Below are positions 8,548 to 51,936 of a DNA stretch of 64,000 nt, piece by piece (positions within the stretch are counted from its first letter, which is position 1; every line of letters starts with the position of its first letter). The position numbers were made by a program, and so were the translations under genes. The stretch spans positions 1 through 64,000 of the IMG/VR virus record IMGVR_UViG_3300028800_000097. One strand, 5' to 3'. This stretch comes from a virus. The notes beneath the pieces were generated by a model. The model made no database searches, was not told where the DNA came from, and worked only from the letters and a program-made list of their open reading frames with translations.

Positions 8548-8753
8548 GCGAGACCGACAAGAAGCTCCCGCTCGAGGACTTCCAGGCGATCTGCCTTCTC
8601 GTGTGCCCGCATTGCCGGGCGCAGCGTCCGCTGTCGAAGCGGCCCGACACCGCCGAATGGGTGCATGACTGGAAGTCGACTGGCGGTGGGCAGTCGCACA
8701 CCCTGTGCTGGTCGACTGGGTTCAGGAACAGCGAATATGCACCGAGTTGGTGA
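8544..8753 (+). CDS. Small CxxC protein
   Basis: 69-aa protein MSETDKKLPLEDFQAICLLV with CPHCRAQ and a later Cys. Overlaps the previous gene by ATGA. One zinc site is possible. Function unknown. Confidence 0.6.
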   Translation: MSETDKKLPLEDFQAICLLVCPHCRAQRPLSKRPDTAEWVHDWKSTGGGQSHTLCWSTGFRNSEYAPSW

Positions 8754-8763
8754 GGAGATCGTG

Positions 8764-10329
8764 GTGAACGACGATGCAGCAGTGGTTTCTTGGCAGGCGC
8801 TGAAGTCGGCGAACCAGGTCGCGGCCGAGGCTCGGGTCGCCGCTCTGCTGAAGGGCGAGGACGGTCCGGAGATGCCGGTGTCGGTCGGCGATGCGAACCC
8901 GGTCGACACCGAGTTCAAGCGTCGGCGGAACTCGGCCATCGATTTCCACAACCGCGCGCTGGAGATAGTCGGGCACGACAAGCAGACCGCGTATCGCCTG
9001 CTGTGCTCCTGCGTGACGGTCGACCCGGCGATGGCCGGCGGCTGGTATATGCTGGGCAATGCCACGGCTGACCTGAATATGTTCGACGCCTCGGTGGCCT
9101 GCTTCCGCCGAGCGCTGGCGCTGGAGGACACGACCGAGCCAGGCGGGATGAATCCAGAGCTACGGGCGAAGTGCTTGGTCAATCTGAGCCACCGCCTGAC
9201 GAACGTGGGCGACAACGAGGAAGCGGGTCGCGTCAACGAACAGGCGATAGAGATGCTGGCGGCGAACCCTGAACTTGACTGGGAGGGCCGCGCATTCGCC
9301 TACACCAACATGAGCCAGATCCTGTCGGTGCTGGATTTCGGCGAGGCGGCTATCGCGTTCGCCGAGAAGGGGTGGGCGCTGAACCAGTCCCCGATCATAG
9401 AACTCGGACTGGCCTTCGCGTTGATGTTCCACGGCGATCTGGCCGAAGGTCTGAAGCATTTCGAGAGCCGGTTCGGGTATCGCTTACAATCGTACCTCGA
9501 ATATCCCTACGACCGGTGGGACGGAAAGACGGACCACAACAAGACGCTGTTCGTGGTGTCGGAGCAGGGACTGGGCGACACGATCTCATTCGCGCGCTTC
9601 CTCGGCATGGTGGGGGCGCGCTGCAAGAAGGTTATATTCCAGGTCCACCCCGAACTTCACCGGCTGATGTCGGCTTCGTTGAAGCACTGGGGCAACGTCG
9701 AGTGCGTCCCGCTCTCCACGCAGTTCCCGGTGGCTGATGCGTGGTGCTCGGTGATGAGCCTCCCGGTGGCGATGGGCCTGACGACGGAGCAGATCACCAA
9801 CATCAGGCAGGGTTGGACGCCGCGGTATGAGAAGCGTCCGGCTCCCGAGTGGAAGTATCCGGGCCCGGAGATGCACGTCGGCATCGCGTGGGCCGGCTCC
9901 GCGGCGAACGGCATCGACAAATGGCGATCGGTGCCGATGGCGATGTTCCTCGAACTGGCGAAGGTCGCCGGCGTCCGTCTTTACTCGCTCCAGGTCGGCG
10001 AGCGCGTGCAGGATATGCACGAGGTGGGTGCCGCCGCACTCGTGCGCGATCTCTATCCGTATATCAGGGACGTCGCCGACACCTGCGCGATCCTCGACGA
10101 ACTGGACATGGTGATCAGCGTCGAGAGCTTCCTTGGTCACCTCTGCGGCGCGATGGGCAAGGAGTGCTGGTTGCTGGCGTCGCAGCGCGGCGGCGACTGG
10201 CGGCTGGGGCGATCGCGCGAGAAATCGCTGTGGTACGACAATCACCGTCTATTCCGGCAGGGGTCGGACGGCGAGTGGGCGCCGGTGTTCAAGCGGCTGG
10301 TGGAGGCATTGGATGTCCGTGCAGTCTGA
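8764..10329 (+). CDS. TPR-repeat glycosyltransferase-like protein
   Basis: 521-aa protein; the GTG at 8764 follows GAGGAG by 6 bases (an ATG at 8737 is the alternative). Residues about 40-270 are TPR-like helical pairs (AMAGGWYMLGNATADLNMFDASVACFRRAL). Residues about 290-510 match the heptosyltransferase/GT9-like domain of bacterial TPR glycosyltransferases: SEQGLGDTISFARFL, GIAWAGSAANG, and DLYPYIRDVADTCAILDEL followed by DMVISVESFLGHLCGAMGK. The usual SVDTAVAH is SVESFLGH here. It likely transfers sugar to a phage or host protein; donor and target are unknown. Position before the head genes favours a virion or host-surface target. Confidence 0.8.
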   Translation: MNDDAAVVSWQALKSANQVAAEARVAALLKGEDGPEMPVSVGDANPVDTEFKRRRNSAIDFHNRALEIVGHDKQTAYRLLCSCVTVDPAMAGGWYMLGNATADLNMFDASVACFRRALALEDTTEPGGMNPELRAKCLVNLSHRLTNVGDNEEAGRVNEQAIEMLAANPELDWEGRAFAYTNMSQILSVLDFGEAAIAFAEKGWALNQSPIIELGLAFALMFHGDLAEGLKHFESRFGYRLQSYLEYPYDRWDGKTDHNKTLFVVSEQGLGDTISFARFLGMVGARCKKVIFQVHPELHRLMSASLKHWGNVECVPLSTQFPVADAWCSVMSLPVAMGLTTEQITNIRQGWTPRYEKRPAPEWKYPGPEMHVGIAWAGSAANGIDKWRSVPMAMFLELAKVAGVRLYSLQVGERVQDMHEVGAAALVRDLYPYIRDVADTCAILDELDMVISVESFLGHLCGAMGKECWLLASQRGGDWRLGRSREKSLWYDNHRLFRQGSDGEWAPVFKRLVEALDVRAV

Positions 10330-10507
10330 TACCGATCCGCCGCGGCAGGTGTGGATTCAGTCCGAACCGGAATTGTCCCTCGATCAGACATATCGTCTCG
10401 TGGTCATAGCGCACAAGACCAGCGACCCCAAGGTGCGCGCCGCCGCCTTGTGGCTCATCGACCACGCGATGCACCCCCTGCGTATGGTGGCTCCCGATGA
10501 ACGATGA
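10313..10507 (+). CDS. Hypothetical protein
   Basis: 64-aa protein MSVQSDTDPPRQVWIQSEPE, overlapping the 3' end of the glycosyltransferase gene by 17 bases and the next gene by 11. Short soluble protein; no family recognised. Confidence 0.55.
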   Translation: MSVQSDTDPPRQVWIQSEPELSLDQTYRLVVIAHKTSDPKVRAAALWLIDHAMHPLRMVAPDER

Positions 10508-10862
10508 GGATCTTGAACTGAGCGTCCTGGATATATGCAGCCAGGGCGGATACATCGCGCCGATCGGGGCGTGGAAGGACACCGTTGAGCGTCTCCATGC
10601 CCAAGGCCTGCTGGAGAAGCTCGACGCGATGAACTACATCATCACGCCGGCCGGCTCCGCCGAGTTCGAGAAGCGGGAGAACGCCGAGGTGATGGGCGTG
10701 TTCCGCGAGCAGCAGGCGTTGGCCAGGCCGGTGATCGAAGGTGAGGTCATCCCTCCAGTGCCGCCGAGCAATATCCAGCAGCAACTGTCCGAGGTGACGC
10801 GGCGCGCGTTCCCCAGACAGGAGCCATTCATCGAGGGGGAGGCGGAGGATGTCACTGAGTGA
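10497..10862 (+). CDS. Hypothetical protein
   Basis: 121-aa acidic protein starting MNDEDLELSVLDICSQGGYI. The first 65 residues (VERLHAQGLLEKLDAMNYIITPAGSAEF) look like a winged-helix of the kind in phage wHTH proteins (recognition helix, then a short wing). The C-terminal half is Pro/Glu-rich. Possible regulator; not certain. Confidence 0.65.
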   Translation: MNDEDLELSVLDICSQGGYIAPIGAWKDTVERLHAQGLLEKLDAMNYIITPAGSAEFEKRENAEVMGVFREQQALARPVIEGEVIPPVPPSNIQQQLSEVTRRAFPRQEPFIEGEAEDVTE

Positions 10863-11196
10863 ATCACTGCGCGGCACGATACCCAGCCTAGACGACACGA
10901 TGTTCTTCCAGAAGCACCGCGACCGACACGCGCGCATCCGGATGCCGTTCGGCAATGAGGCGGAGGCTGACTATCGTCAGTTGGGTTACCACGACCCGTC
11001 CCGCCGTCGGATGTTGGTCTGGAAGGTTCCGCCTGACGGGCCGATGCCAGGCAGGATCATCCCGATCCCTATCATCACGGCGTTTGACGAGACGATCGAG
11101 GACGACGACGCGATCCTGCTGCCGATGCTGGCGGAGATCATGAACGATGCGGCGAAGGATCTCGGGATCGAGCCGCCACAGGTCGGGAGGGGATGA
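10849..11196 (+). CDS. Hypothetical protein
   Basis: 115-aa protein MSLSESLRGTIPSLDDTMFF, overlapping its neighbours on both sides. Ends in an acidic helix (DDDAILLPMLAEIMNDAAKDLG). No family recognised. Confidence 0.6.
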   Translation: MSLSESLRGTIPSLDDTMFFQKHRDRHARIRMPFGNEAEADYRQLGYHDPSRRRMLVWKVPPDGPMPGRIIPIPIITAFDETIEDDDAILLPMLAEIMNDAAKDLGIEPPQVGRG

Positions 11197-11414
11197 TGCC
11201 GCCGGTGATGCGCGACGTGTATTCGAGCCACGTCAACAAGATCGGCCACGACCCGGACACCAACGAGCTCCATGTGACCTGGGACAACGGGAAGACATCG
11301 GTGTATTCCGACGTCCCCGCCGCCAAGGCCGACGACGTGATGAACTCGTGGTCGGTCGGGAAGGCGATCCACTCGCAGATCAAGGGCGCGCACGATCATA
11401 GGTATCTGAAGTGA
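11193..11414 (+). CDS. KTSC domain protein
   Basis: 73-aa protein consisting of a KTSC domain: SSHVNKIGHDPDTNELHVTW, then DNGKTSVYSDVP and an HSQIKGAHDHRYL end. KTSC proteins are small, about 60-70 residues, and common in phages and bacteria next to lysyl-tRNA-synthetase-like or regulatory genes; their biochemical role is not settled. Overlaps both neighbours. Confidence 0.8.
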   Translation: MMPPVMRDVYSSHVNKIGHDPDTNELHVTWDNGKTSVYSDVPAAKADDVMNSWSVGKAIHSQIKGAHDHRYLK

Positions 11415-12109
11415 GCGAGCCGCGCGTCATGATATTCGGCACGTCATACATCGACAGCCAGGAGCGCAAGTGGCTTGCCGAGCAGTGGCTTCGGGTGATG
11501 CGACTGGTCAATCCAGGCATTCCGATCGGCATCGTCGACACGCCGGGGCCTGTCGAATGGCAGCCAATGGGCAAGGACGACAGCCTGTATGATTGGCATT
11601 TCACGTACCCCGACAACATTGGGCACCTGACAAAGACCGGTCGGGACGGATGGGGAAGGGCGTTCTCGTGCGGAATCGATCAAGCTATCGACCAGGGCTA
11701 CGACTACGCGGTCCACATCGAGTGCGATCTACTGTTCGCTAAGCCGGTGATGCCCATCATAAAGAGGATGCTGCTGAACAACATCAAGGCGGTCTCCACT
11801 GCGGCCATGCCGCACCGTATGATCGAGACCGGCCTGTTGTTCCTCGACCTCGAATACGCCCATGAATCGCGGTTGGTCGAGCGATACGACTGGCAGACCT
11901 CATCGCTGATCGAATTGCCCGAGCGCAGGATGGAAAAGCTGCTTGGCGACGATCTGTACCTGATGCCGTGGTGGGGTTTCCGCGACGATGACAAAGTGCT
12001 GCAACCAGCTACGATGACGTCGCACTTCCCGGCCGGCATGGATTGGCTCACGCACGCGTCCGTGCCCTGCTACAAGCGGTTCATGGACATTAACGGAATG
12101 CTTGGATAA
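11411..12109 (+). CDS. Glycosyltransferase-like protein
   Basis: 232-aa protein starting MSEPRVMIFGTSYID. It has the order of a GT-A fold: N-terminal beta strand MIFGTSY, W-rich region, then YDYAVHIECDLLFAKPV in which ECDLLF takes the place of a DxD metal/nucleotide-sugar motif, followed by a PHRMIETGLLFLD segment and late DDDKV. This is a tentative call; a metal-binding fold of another kind is possible. It is the second glycosyltransferase-like gene in 4 kb. Confidence 0.55.
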   Translation: MSEPRVMIFGTSYIDSQERKWLAEQWLRVMRLVNPGIPIGIVDTPGPVEWQPMGKDDSLYDWHFTYPDNIGHLTKTGRDGWGRAFSCGIDQAIDQGYDYAVHIECDLLFAKPVMPIIKRMLLNNIKAVSTAAMPHRMIETGLLFLDLEYAHESRLVERYDWQTSSLIELPERRMEKLLGDDLYLMPWWGFRDDDKVLQPATMTSHFPAGMDWLTHASVPCYKRFMDINGMLG

Positions 12110-12135
12110 CCCCTCTCAGCACAGGAGTAACGACT

Positions 12136-12360
12136 ATGCCGATGCACTCTTCCGTATTCGGGCACCTCAAGCCCACCGACAACCAACTCCAGGTTATGGC
12201 GAACGTGCGCGCGGAGTTTCGCCTGTTCGTTGAAAGCCTAGACTATTCGATTCCTGACGGTCCCGACAAGACGTACCTGATGCGTCAGCTACGCGACTGT
12301 GCGATGTGGGCCAACGTAGCAATCACACGGCTGACTGACGGCTTTCCGAGGAAACAGTGA
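12136..12360 (+). CDS. Acb2/Tad1 hairpin-domain protein (anti-CBASS candidate)
   Basis: 74-aa protein. FGHLKPTDNQLQVMANVRAE, a middle amphipathic helix and a final RQLRDCAMWANVAITRL reproduce the pattern of the Acb2/Tad1 hairpin family (F-x-H-x-P, conserved R, and MWANxxI-R ending). Characterised phage Acb2 proteins form hexamers that bind cyclic di- and trinucleotides and so block CBASS (and related) defence signalling. That this copy binds the same ligands is inference. It lies immediately before the packaging genes and probably shares their transcript. Start ATG is preceded by AGGAG. Confidence 0.65.
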   Translation: MPMHSSVFGHLKPTDNQLQVMANVRAEFRLFVESLDYSIPDGPDKTYLMRQLRDCAMWANVAITRLTDGFPRKQ

Positions 12361-12629
12361 GCGATCAGCCGATTCAGGAAACACTCCCGACCCGCGCCGC
12401 CCGCCTGTTTCGCGAGATGGCACAGGCCGTTGACACCAACAGCGCCGCATTCTCAGGCGCGTTCGTCATCGTCGGCCCTGATGGTCAGGTCAAGAAGATG
12501 CTCCTGGTCAACGATGAGCCTGAAGCGGCCATGTTCTGGTCGAACGCCGAGATGATGTGCAAGATGGCCATCGCCGAGACCGAGCAGAACCGCCCCATGA
12601 ACCCGTCGCAGCGCCCTCCGGGGTGGTAA
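12357..12629 (+). CDS. Hypothetical protein before terminase
   Basis: 90-aa protein with a GTG start overlapping the Acb2-like stop (GTGA). FSGAFVIVGPDGQVKKMLLVNDEPEAAMFWSNAEMM suggests a small beta-alpha fold. Its place directly before the large terminase is where a small terminase often lies, but it has no DNA-binding HTH, so that role is not claimed. Confidence 0.65.
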   Translation: MSDQPIQETLPTRAARLFREMAQAVDTNSAAFSGAFVIVGPDGQVKKMLLVNDEPEAAMFWSNAEMMCKMAIAETEQNRPMNPSQRPPGW

Positions 12630-12630
12630 A

Positions 12631-14547
12631 ATGGCTTCGATAAATCACGATGCCTGGACTCAGGAGCGGGCTGACGCGGTGAAGGCCGCGTTCTACGACT
12701 ATCTGGACCACGTTTGGGTCAATTCCAAGGAAAAGGGCTGGATCATCCTCGGCCAAAACCTTTACGGCGCCCAGGAGCGGGTGATCGAGGAGATTTTCGA
12801 CGCTCTGGCCAACGGCATCCACGACATAAAGATCCTGAAATCCCGCCAGTTGGGCGTTTCGACCATTATTCGCGCCCTGATGTTGTTCTGGGCTGGTGTT
12901 TTCGACGGGTTGACCGGCTCGCTGGTCTTCGACACGAGTCAGCATCTGGACGAAGCCCGCCACGAGATGGTCAACATGCTAGAAAGGCTACCAGAAGACT
13001 TTGAATTTCCGCGTGAGAAGTCAAACAACAGGTATTCCCTGCAAATAGACAATCAAAGCAGAATAAACTTGTCATCAGCCGGAGTAAAAGAGAGTAAATC
13101 TTCCGGCACACTCGGTCGCGGCTCGGCAGTGTCGCTCGTTCACCGCTCGGAACTCTGTTCGTACGCGAATGTGGCCGGTTTGGAGGCGTTTCGAGCCTCA
13201 ATGGCTCGCACGAACCCCAATCGGCTGTTCGTCGATGAGTCGACAGCCCGTGGCTTCAACATCTGGCACGAGATATGGACGGCGGCGCTGAAGGATCACC
13301 ATTGCCGGTGCATTTTCGTCGGTTGGTGGGCGCATCCGGACCAAGTTATCCCTCGCGATGACCCGGATTTCGAGAAATACGGCATATTCCCGCCGTCGAA
13401 GGACGAACTGATCAAGATCGAGGCGGTGAAGCTCCAATACGGGGTGATCATCACGCCTGAGCAGCTCGCGTGGATACGGCGCGAGATGGATCCGACTGCC
13501 GAGATGGAAGGCGACGCCGACGTGGTGTTCGAGGGCGACGCTCTGCGAAAACAGGAGCAGCCGTGGACCGCGGAAGAGGCATTCCAGCAAACCGGGTCGG
13601 TATTCTTCCAGGCCGAGACCCTTACTGACCAGTCGAACAAGTTCGCGTCCAACAAGTTCCAGACCTACGCGTTCACGCCAGGCCTGGAGTTCACCAACAT
13701 GCGGGCGGTGAAGGCCGGCAACATGAAGTCGGTTGAACTGAAGGTCTGGGAGGAGCCGGTCGAGGACAGCTTCTACATCGTCTCGGCCGATGTGGCCTAC
13801 GGGCACGATGAGAACAACGATCGGTCGGCTATCCAGGTTCTGCGGTGCTTCTCGGACGGTCTCGATCAGGTCGCCGAGTATGCGTGGCCGCTGATCAACA
13901 CGCGCCAGTTCGCTTGGGTGATCGCGGCGTTGGAAGGCTGGTATGCCGGCGACAAGTCCCAGGTGTTCCGCATCGTGGAGATCAACGGCCCGGGCGAGGC
14001 GACGTGGAACGAGTTGCAGAGCCTGAAACGCCAGATCGGCACTGGGTATTTCGGCAATCAGTTGGCCGAGCGTGGCTTGCAGAACATCCAGCGCAACGTC
14101 CGGAACTACATGTACACGCGGTCCGATTCAGCGCACCCCGGCCAGTCCATGATGTGGAAGTCGACCACCCAGTTGAAGGTCGCGATCATGGAGCGGCTTC
14201 GTGACTTTGCCTCGAACAACATCCTCCGGATCAGATCGCTGGAGACCATCGACGAGATGCGGACTGTGGCGCGCGAGGGTGACGCGATCAATGCGCAGGG
14301 CACGGCGAAGGACGATCGCGTGGTGTCGCTGGCGATGGGCGTTCGGTGCTGGGATGAGCGGGTGCGACGGCAGTTGCTGCAACTCAAGCGGACGCGCGAG
14401 GCTGACACGGCCCGCCGGCGGCTCGACATCAGGGATCAGGTGAAGATGTTCAACGACAACATGATCACGACGTTTCTCGGCAGCAAGAACGCGGTGCGCC
14501 GGGGAATGCTGTCCCAGAGCCGGCGTCAGGCATGGAGGGGTAGATGA
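12631..14547 (+). CDS. Terminase large subunit
   Basis: 638-aa packaging motor and nuclease. The ATPase P-loop-like motif KSRQLGVST lies at about residues 70-78, the Walker B/catalytic carboxylate at VSLVHRSELC (about 166-176), and the RNase H-like nuclease begins with SADVAYGHDENNDRSA near residue 386. Length is at the upper end of the family. A 130-bp stretch (about 12985-13110) is much poorer in GC (23 of 60 for 13021-13080, against 38 of 60 for 13501-13560) and uses rare codons without a break in frame. No small terminase is recognised nearby. Confidence 0.88.
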   Translation: MASINHDAWTQERADAVKAAFYDYLDHVWVNSKEKGWIILGQNLYGAQERVIEEIFDALANGIHDIKILKSRQLGVSTIIRALMLFWAGVFDGLTGSLVFDTSQHLDEARHEMVNMLERLPEDFEFPREKSNNRYSLQIDNQSRINLSSAGVKESKSSGTLGRGSAVSLVHRSELCSYANVAGLEAFRASMARTNPNRLFVDESTARGFNIWHEIWTAALKDHHCRCIFVGWWAHPDQVIPRDDPDFEKYGIFPPSKDELIKIEAVKLQYGVIITPEQLAWIRREMDPTAEMEGDADVVFEGDALRKQEQPWTAEEAFQQTGSVFFQAETLTDQSNKFASNKFQTYAFTPGLEFTNMRAVKAGNMKSVELKVWEEPVEDSFYIVSADVAYGHDENNDRSAIQVLRCFSDGLDQVAEYAWPLINTRQFAWVIAALEGWYAGDKSQVFRIVEINGPGEATWNELQSLKRQIGTGYFGNQLAERGLQNIQRNVRNYMYTRSDSAHPGQSMMWKSTTQLKVAIMERLRDFASNNILRIRSLETIDEMRTVAREGDAINAQGTAKDDRVVSLAMGVRCWDERVRRQLLQLKRTREADTARRRLDIRDQVKMFNDNMITTFLGSKNAVRRGMLSQSRRQAWRGR

Positions 14548-49925: not shown

Positions 49926-50101
49926 CAGATCAGTTCCTTGTCCTTGGCCAACCACTCCGGCATGGCCATCGTCTTGTCGTCGACATCCCATTCACACTGG
50001 GATTTAGGCAGCCAGACCGTCCGGATACCGTCGTGGAACCGATAGGCTTTATCGGTCTCTCCCTGGACTTCGCCGGCGACGTCAACAAGGTCGGACTTCA
50101 C
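49925..50101 (-). CDS. Small conserved early protein
   Basis: 58-aa acidic protein with GTG start overlapping the stop of the RecT-like gene (GTGA). Pattern [20 protein letters not shown] then [11 protein letters not shown] is a recurring small phage early-protein layout (display of a W-LPKSQ strand pair). Function unknown. Confidence 0.65.
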
Positions 50102-51936
50102 GTCGCGGCCTTCAGTTCAGCCTTGTAGTCGAGGAACGCCTTCTGCAACTCGGCGATCAGCGCCGTCTTGCCTTCCTCGCGCCAGCGTGCCGCCACCCGG
50201 CCAAGCACAGGGTTGCGACCCAAGGTGTCCACTTCGTCCGCCGTCTTGGCGCTCTTCAGGCCAGACACCCACCGGTCCATCTCAACGCGGTCAGGATCGG
50301 CGCCCGGTTGATCTTCGGTCTCGGCCTTCGCTTCCTCTGCCGGCGGCGGAGCGGCTTCCTTCGCAGGTTCAGCGACCTTCGCCGGAGGCTTCAGCATCTC
50401 GGCCAAGTTCGGGGCCTGTATCTTCAGCGTGCCGGCCTGCTCGATCAGCGCCTTGATGGCCAACGGCCGCACCGACCCGGGGGCCAGTTTGACGACATCG
50501 GTGTTGGCGGCGATGAACGGCAGGTAGCCGCCGGCGGTCAGCGTCGCCACTTCATCGCGGAACATCACGAGCCACCCCTTCCAGCTATCTCGGGTGCCGG
50601 CCTTCGGCGCCTCGACCACGACAGGATCGGGTTCCTGCTGTTCCTCGGGCCGCCCGATGCCAGCTATGATGTCGCCTGCCGCTGGGCCGGTCGCCTTGGC
50701 ATCGGCGATGCCGTCGGCGTTCTGCTCCATCAGGGCCTCACGGTTGCTGCTCTTTTCCCACCGCGCCTCAAGGGCGTTGGCGAACTTCACCGGATCGGTG
50801 AATGAGTCGTCACCGACAGCCTCGCCCCATTCGTCCAGCAGGAACGCCTCGAACTCCACCGGCACCGCCTCCGTGGCTGCGGCCTGCTGGGTGGGCTGCT
50901 TCTCTTCGACCGGTTGCGGCGCTTCAACCTTAGCGGTCTCAGCGGGCTTCTCAGCGGCCTTGGCGGAGGCATCCGTTTTCGCCTCGGTCTTCGGTGTGGA
51001 CTCTGGTGGCGCCAGCCGCTTGCGCGCTTCGGCGAACGCCTCGGCAATCACCCCCTTGGCCTGATCCGGCGCCGCCTCCGTCGTCTTGACCACCACCGCC
51101 AGCGTAGCGAGTTCGTCAACGTCACGCAGCGTCGGGGCTTCCTTCAGCTTGCCGACCAGGAGGTTCATCCACTCCCAGGCGTTCTGCTCGCCGAACAGCG
51201 CGGCGGCCACCTTATCGAACCACGCATCGTCCCAGCCGTCCTTGGACTTCGGCCGCGCGGTGTACCAGGACTTCTCCGGCTTAGGCATCTGCCACACCGG
51301 CAGGGCCGCCTCCTCCTGCTCGATCTCAGCCGTGGCGAGGCCGCGCAGCACATCAGGGAACGCGGCATGCCATGCCCGGTGCCGCGCGCGCCACATGATC
51401 ATGTCGCGAGGATACGAGGTGTGGACGTTCCCCAGCTTGGCGTGGGCGGCATCCGAGATGGAGAACCGGCCTTCGTGCGGCGACGGCCGGCCGCGGCGAA
51501 TGACCACGCACACCGCCGTCAGCGCGGACCCCTCGCCCTCGAACGTCTCGCGCACATCGGCGACCAGACCAGTCCGCATGCAGAGCCCTGGCACCGCCTC
51601 GCCCCAGACCGACGGTCTGCCGTTGACCACGCAGATGCTTTCCAGCGAAGCCATAGGCGGCAGGCCGATCTCGGCGCCCTTCATCACCGCCACGATCGCG
51701 TCGTCCACCTTGCCGCGGTAGTCCTTCGGGCACAGGCCGGTCCGCGTCACGCGCTCGGCGAAGTTCTCCAACTCCTCGAACGTGGTGATCGCGAACGGCG
51801 ACGGGCGGCTGACCCGCGCCTCGACCTGACGACTGGTCTCCTCAATGATCTTGGACAGCAGACCGGGCGATATTTCGGTGGCGGCCTGCGGCTCGCGGTT
51901 CAGCGATACAACCTTGTTGCTCTCGGTTTCACTCAT
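50098..51936 (-). CDS. RecT-like single-strand annealing protein with long tail
   Basis: 612-aa protein; RecT proteins are usually about 250-350. The N-terminal 200 residues carry the annealing domain: PSPFAITTFEELENFAERVT, LPPMASLESICVVNGRPSVW and MIMWRARHRAWHAAFPDVLRG. The next 400 are Ala/Pro/Glu-rich with blocks such as EEKQPTQQAAATEAVP and a late helical region with RDSWKGWLVMFRDEVATL. It probably anneals DNA ends for phage recombination; the tail may recruit partners. It leads with overlaps to small downstream genes. Confidence 0.75.
   Translation of the reverse strand: MSETESNKVVSLNREPQAATEISPGLLSKIIEETSRQVEARVSRPSPFAITTFEELENFAERVTRTGLCPKDYRGKVDDAIVAVMKGAEIGLPPMASLESICVVNGRPSVWGEAVPGLCMRTGLVADVRETFEGEGSALTAVCVVIRRGRPSPHEGRFSISDAAHAKLGNVHTSYPRDMIMWRARHRAWHAAFPDVLRGLATAEIEQEEAALPVWQMPKPEKSWYTARPKSKDGWDDAWFDKVAAALFGEQNAWEWMNLLVGKLKEAPTLRDVDELATLAVVVKTTEAAPDQAKGVIAEAFAEARKRLAPPESTPKTEAKTDASAKAAEKPAETAKVEAPQPVEEKQPTQQAAATEAVPVEFEAFLLDEWGEAVGDDSFTDPVKFANALEARWEKSSNREALMEQNADGIADAKATGPAAGDIIAGIGRPEEQQEPDPVVVEAPKAGTRDSWKGWLVMFRDEVATLTAGGYLPFIAANTDVVKLAPGSVRPLAIKALIEQAGTLKIQAPNLAEMLKPPAKVAEPAKEAAPPPAEEAKAETEDQPGADPDRVEMDRWVSGLKSAKTADEVDTLGRNPVLGRVAARWREEGKTALIAELQKAFLDYKAELKAAT

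Follow-up and report, generated by a model that had tools for sequence, protein, structure and literature searches.

Does a 74-codon gene beside the packaging genes of this virus encode a sponge for host defence signals, and is it an Acb2? The first-pass annotation had proposed an Acb2-type anti-CBASS protein at this locus. The window is the whole stretch of DNA that was analyzed, 64,000 nucleotides of a virus record of 64732 bases with a GC content of 60–65%. The 74-aa reading frame is present as annotated, is preceded by a good ribosome-binding site, and encodes MPMHSSVFGHLKPTDNQLQVMANVRAEFRLFVESLDYSIPDGPDKTYLMRQLRDCAMWANVAITRLTDGFPRKQ. It lies in the following run of genes (window positions).

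10497–12109, + strand: the four upstream genes taken together (121 aa, 115 aa, 73-aa KTSC domain, 232 aa), ends mostly overlapping
10497–10862, + strand: 121-aa gene
10849–11196, + strand: 115-aa gene
11193–11414, + strand: KTSC-domain protein, 73 aa (PF13619, 8.6e-13)
11411–12109, + strand: 232-aa gene
12123–12127, + strand: Shine-Dalgarno-like AGGAG, read from the sequence, 8 nt before the ATG of the hairpin gene
12136–12360, + strand: Acb2/Tad1-hairpin protein gene, 74 aa (ORF call, profiles, and fold)
12357–12629, + strand: orphan gene, 90 aa, with a 4-bp overlap with the stop of the hairpin gene
12631–14547, + strand: terminase-large-subunit-like protein, 638 aa (weak terminase matches; identity via a relative)

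A 26-nt gap separates the 232-aa gene from the hairpin gene. The annotated position beside packaging genes is borne out, as the terminase-like gene begins 271 bp beyond the hairpin gene. The 638-aa protein is read as a terminase because its relative in another phage, 33% identical, itself matches phrog_2 (5.9e-15). A consensus promoter scan of the gene run gave one match against 1.8 expected, none above chance, and co-transcription of the hairpin gene with the terminase gene is therefore likely. The tight gene run may point to late expression, which the first-pass annotation had proposed. No tRNA genes were found in the window.

Several other genes of the window were recorded alongside. The KTSC protein lies two genes upstream of the hairpin gene, and neighbor-protein cluster 24, which has a similar KTSC-like sequence, adjoins the hairpin gene in six other loci. 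The last helix of the 90-aa orphan, EPEAAMFWSNAEMM, bears a faint similarity (E 0.015) to the HMM of the actinophage hairpins. The orphan has no Pfam match, no relatives by pattern scan of IMG/VR, and no counterpart beside any of the hairpin-gene relatives compared; its likeness to the hairpins was therefore taken as chance. A 554-aa protein (8665–10329) has no match in a PHROG search but has 35–41% identical relatives in L088, a Verrucomicrobia MAG contig, and L098, where they sit 4–7 kb downstream of hairpin-gene relatives. A 612-aa protein on the reverse strand (50098–51936) matches RecT-like annealing proteins over residues 45–344 (phrog_561, 5.7e-18) and has about 270 further residues beyond the matched part.

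Pfam, profile–profile comparison via an intermediate family, and fold all support placing the 74-aa protein in the Acb2/Tad1 hairpin superfamily. The profile check named in the first-pass annotation gives a match to PF24729 (Acb2_Tad1_hairpin) over residues 12–65 (E 6.9e-6), spanning profile positions 4–58 of 58 with 54 of the 58 covered, at 26.6 bits, which is 0.4 bits under the curated cut-off of 27 bits. The window branch straddles the curator's threshold, with one relative (L049) at 32.1 bits and another (L002) at 22.9. PF24729 matches all 45 aligned relatives (best 6.9e-13), and also T4 Vs.4 (7.1e-20), PaP2 p26 (3.2e-18), and the 142-aa Tad1-type protein of SBSphiJ7 (2.9e-8). An HMM built from 62 actinophage-type hairpins, with window-family members left out, matches the window ORF at E 1.4e-7 and 27.5 bits and ranks it first of the 958 ORF segments in a six-frame reading of the window; the best of 2000 shuffles reached 6.2 bits. 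The protein also matches phrog_1454 (E 9.7e-10, residues 8–65), which is annotated "unknown function" and gives no mechanism. No NCBIfam model exists for the window protein, T4 Vs.4, or Tad1. When the PDB was searched by sequence, neither the single protein nor the family profile found an Acb2/Tad1 chain; all matches were chance ones (ankyrin designs and helical bundles). A hairpin-family tree had too few columns to place the window branch.

The AlphaFold2 model of the window protein (pLDDT 91) has helices at residues 5–11, 15–38, and 43–64. The predicted protomer is thus one short N-terminal helix followed by two long antiparallel helices, the arrangement described for Acb2 (PMC10419184; PMC12043709). 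Of the first 13 matches of the model among the predicted viral proteins of BFVD, 11 bear the name Acb2/Tad1 hairpin (probability 0.97–1.00, E 0.007–0.2). Foldseek against the PDB gave nothing below E 2.4 for the model, with Vs.4 (7uq2) at E 2.9. Re-alignment to solved chains placed 7uq2 first (Z 6.6, rmsd 3.1, 64 residues), and unrelated helical bundles reach 6.4. The Vs.4 match of the predicted model lies within helical-bundle noise and is only consistent with the family fold; the solved-structure match is therefore not used as proof.

Within the superfamily, the closest link is to stand-alone hairpins of actinobacterial phages. In HH comparisons, the window family matches these (Rahalelujah gp48 and relatives) at 97.8% (E 9.2e-13, 62 columns). 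Rahalelujah gp48, a PF24729 protein, is 35% identical to the window protein over 60 aa and shares its length, hairpin, and KxxxxxxLxxxxxWANxxIxR core. The actinophage proteins have an FHxAT opening and a TKLEE helix, whereas the window protein has a YLKPT-type opening, here with His for Tyr, a PDGPDKT loop, and an RxLR helix. The actinophage-type family in turn matches the Tad1 hairpin at 96.9% and T4 Acb2 at only 11.9%. To our knowledge, no binding assay has been reported for any member of the window branch or of this linking branch. In Microbacterium phage Statler, one stand-alone hairpin protein has been given the annotation Acb2 (PMC13348362). A CBASS antagonist is annotated in cluster E mycobacteriophages, and its role is called unknown (PMC11953737).

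Direct comparison of the window family with the tested proteins gave no firm link to T4 Vs.4 (27% over 17 columns) and 2.6% for PaP2 p26; T4 and PaP2 Acb2 match each other at 97.7%. Tad1 gave 1.5–2.6%, not significant, and a canonical-only Acb2 HMM fails to reach the window protein (E 3.5). Since direct similarity to tested Acb2 is weak, the window family is tied to a tested sponge only transitively, in two steps via Tad1 or via the Pfam model. Compared with T4 Vs.4 (PDB 7uq2) and PaP2 p26 (PDB 8h2j), the window protein has a shorter loop, lacks F82 and R79, and has His for Tyr, and its branch has a conserved R50/R53 pair. Tad1 (the SBSphiJ7 142-aa protein, L241:1231–1659) ends in a hairpin that belongs to the same Pfam domain, and it also has the MWxN motif. 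Its N-terminal beta domain is missing from the window protein, which totals 74 aa and is helical from residue 5. Judged by sequence, the window family is a large branch of a known sponge superfamily that is not close to tested Acb2.

Some hairpins carry additions. Mycobacterium phage Myrna gp211 (L086:1938–2435, 165 aa) has an N-terminal Acb2/Tad1 hairpin, with a PDGADK loop much like that of the window family, and then some 85 residues with no known function. Four relatives with C-terminal extensions (L073, L075, L078, and L064) are 88–101 aa long, and several of them share a YPxDHPxxGDLGxxP end motif after the hairpin.

The residues that bear on ligand binding are these.

12163–12165, + strand: CAC codon of His10, at the cyclic-nucleotide-stacking Tyr (T4 Y8, PaP2 Y11) by PF24729 coordinates
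12208–12210, + strand: Arg25, invariant (84/84), at T4 Lys23, a cGAMP contact
12253–12273, + strand: PDGPDKT loop, residues 40–46, between the two long helices; the family's most conserved stretch
12283–12294, + strand: Arg50 and Arg53, both 84/84, one turn apart in helix 3
12304–12330, + strand: MWANVAITR signature, residues 57–65, common to T4 Vs.4 and actinophage hairpins

The first-pass annotation had pointed to an F-x-H-x-P opening, a conserved Arg, and a MWANxxI-R ending. The last two hold: the ending reads MWANVAITR, and four arginines (R25, R50, R53, and R65) are invariant, each in 84 of 84 relatives. F8, H10, and P13 are present in the opening, but the stretch F8-G-H10-L-K-P13 has the spacing F-x-H-x-x-P, and the His is no family signature. 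The family consensus at this place is F-x-Y-L-K-P; of the 84 relatives, 80 have Tyr at residue 10, three have His (the window phage, L051, and L091), and one has Phe. Thr occupies position 64 in 81 of 84. The R50/R53 pair stands where actinophage and Tad1 hairpins have Thr/Glu (TKLEE).

In T4 Vs.4, Y8 and F82 stack on the cGAMP bases, Y8, H11, K23, and R79 make polar contacts, and the hexamer is held by L29, A66, A73, and A77 (PMC10097602). Binding falls more than 5-fold in Y8A and more than 25-fold in F82A (PMC10097602). The register was set by PF24729, in which position 2 corresponds to T4 Y8, PaP2 Y11, L002 residue 9, and window residue 10, and position 58 to T4 Q83 and window R65. T4 Y8, H11, K23, R79, and F82 then become window H10, P13, R25, V61, and T64, with the basic residue alone kept; the N-cap Thr is also kept (T4 T12, window T14). 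In this register, half of the T4 dinucleotide pocket is lost in the whole branch, and the Tyr is changed as well in the window phage. The comparison covers the T4 dinucleotide pocket; the residues of the other, independent pocket of Acb2, for trinucleotides (PMC12043709), are outside it.

Relatives are numerous in phages. A scan of IMG/VR gave 108 relatives with the protein as query and 298 with its alignment. Two were found in 84,980 bacterial and archaeal species genomes, as expected if these phages rarely integrate. The flanking genes of the window, compared with 112 relative loci (tblastn, 1e-4), have no counterpart around nearly all of them; the exceptions are a few loci that share a distant portal, capsid, or terminase. 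The relative loci form 36 neighborhood groups with no clear gene in common. At the closest relative, L002 (82% protein identity, Tyr at the position of His10), DNA similarity spans 12139–12360 and nothing else. With dN 0.12 and dS 1.54, the gene is under strong purifying selection between the two phages. The hairpin gene alone has been transferred between unrelated phages, and this behavior as a transferable accessory suits an anti-defense role better than a structural one.

A reading without any sponge keeps the hairpin fold and oligomer for another phage role, either binding of a host nucleotide or that of a small accessory protein, structural or for packaging, encoded next to the terminase. 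Direct similarity to the tested sponges is absent by HH and by the canonical HMM, and a good share of groups have a terminase, portal, or head gene no more than two genes from the hairpin gene, above our chance expectation. Both terminase subunits, large and small, are represented among these neighbors, as are portal and head proteins. Genes for DNA polymerase, primase, exonuclease, Sak4-like, and helicase proteins are also found within two genes, however, and only 4 of the 19 representative records with a recognized terminase (G009, G021, G031, and G043) have it within 3 kb, the 19 being an undercount as recognition used two models only. The record with a terminase of the window's kind (G003, 33% identity) has its hairpin gene about 36 kb away. 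The packaging neighborhood is thus recurrent, not defining. The idea of a gene tied to packaging as a rule was dropped, given the unrelated neighborhoods and the terminase distances. The known acb2 genes of T4 and PaP2 lie in non-structural regions. A gene that moves alone between phages with non-matching core genes is more like an accessory than a structural part, and we consider the reading without a sponge quite improbable. Two further observations concern these neighborhoods. In a large set of soil contigs, L022 and near-identical loci (e.g., L018, L020, L024, L026, and L027), a relative has a probable small terminase gene on one side and a gene resembling a large terminase on the other. 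In other groups, terminases of several unrelated families adjoin the gene, which we judge to be above chance expectation.

If the protein is a sponge, its ligand is the next matter. The Acb2-type label can be kept for superfamily membership, supported by Pfam, profile–profile, and fold evidence, and not for Acb2 in the strict sense, a broad sponge for cyclic di- and trinucleotides that blocks CBASS as T4 Vs.4 and PaP2 p26 do. Strict Acb2 shares with the window protein the Pfam domain, a short protomer without the Tad1 beta domain, the kept K23-to-R25 and T12 positions, and, in most relatives, the Tyr; the independent trinucleotide pocket also falls outside the residues compared (PMC12043709). 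Against these stand the low HH values for both tested Acb2, which match each other well, and the loss of F82 and R79 and the presence of His10, where F82A alone costs Vs.4 most of its binding (PMC10097602). On balance, a strict Acb2 is unlikely. A Tad1-like protein acting against Thoeris by trapping cyclic ADP-ribose isomers would fit the linking family, which matches the Tad1 hairpin far better than T4 Acb2, and N60, common to the Tad1 hairpin (MWLN there, MWAN here). The gcADPR pocket of Tad1, however, is built from beta-domain loops plus helices (PMC12043709), the window protein has about half the length of Tad1 and no N-terminal beta-sheet domain, and direct profile comparison with Tad1 is not significant, so we give this reading very little weight. 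A separate sponge branch with its own ligand is more attractive, though still less likely than not: the PDGPDKT loop, the R50/R53 pair, and the missing F82 clamp would mark a protein that binds a defense signal outside the range of T4 Acb2 and whose gene moves by itself between unrelated lytic phages of soil.

The reading we favor, and consider probable, is a horizontally spread anti-defense sponge with no ligand named. By analogy with Acb2 and Tad1, which are both hexamers, the hairpin protein probably assembles into a homo-oligomer. Pockets at the oligomer interfaces would bind a negatively charged nucleotide that signals in host defense, and the bound signal would be kept from its effector. 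The ligand cannot be named because the T4 pocket is half kept while four arginines are invariant; a trinucleotide, another cyclic nucleotide, or a NAD-derived signal is as likely as 3′,3′-cGAMP.

The finding argues for caution in naming every PF24729 hairpin "Acb2" or "anti-CBASS," a current habit in phage annotation. The conserved pocket residues that differ from Acb2 make the identity of the signal a direct biochemical question. If the protein is a sponge, the presence of one small gene in hundreds of otherwise unrelated phages would point to a signaling defense that is widespread in their hosts.
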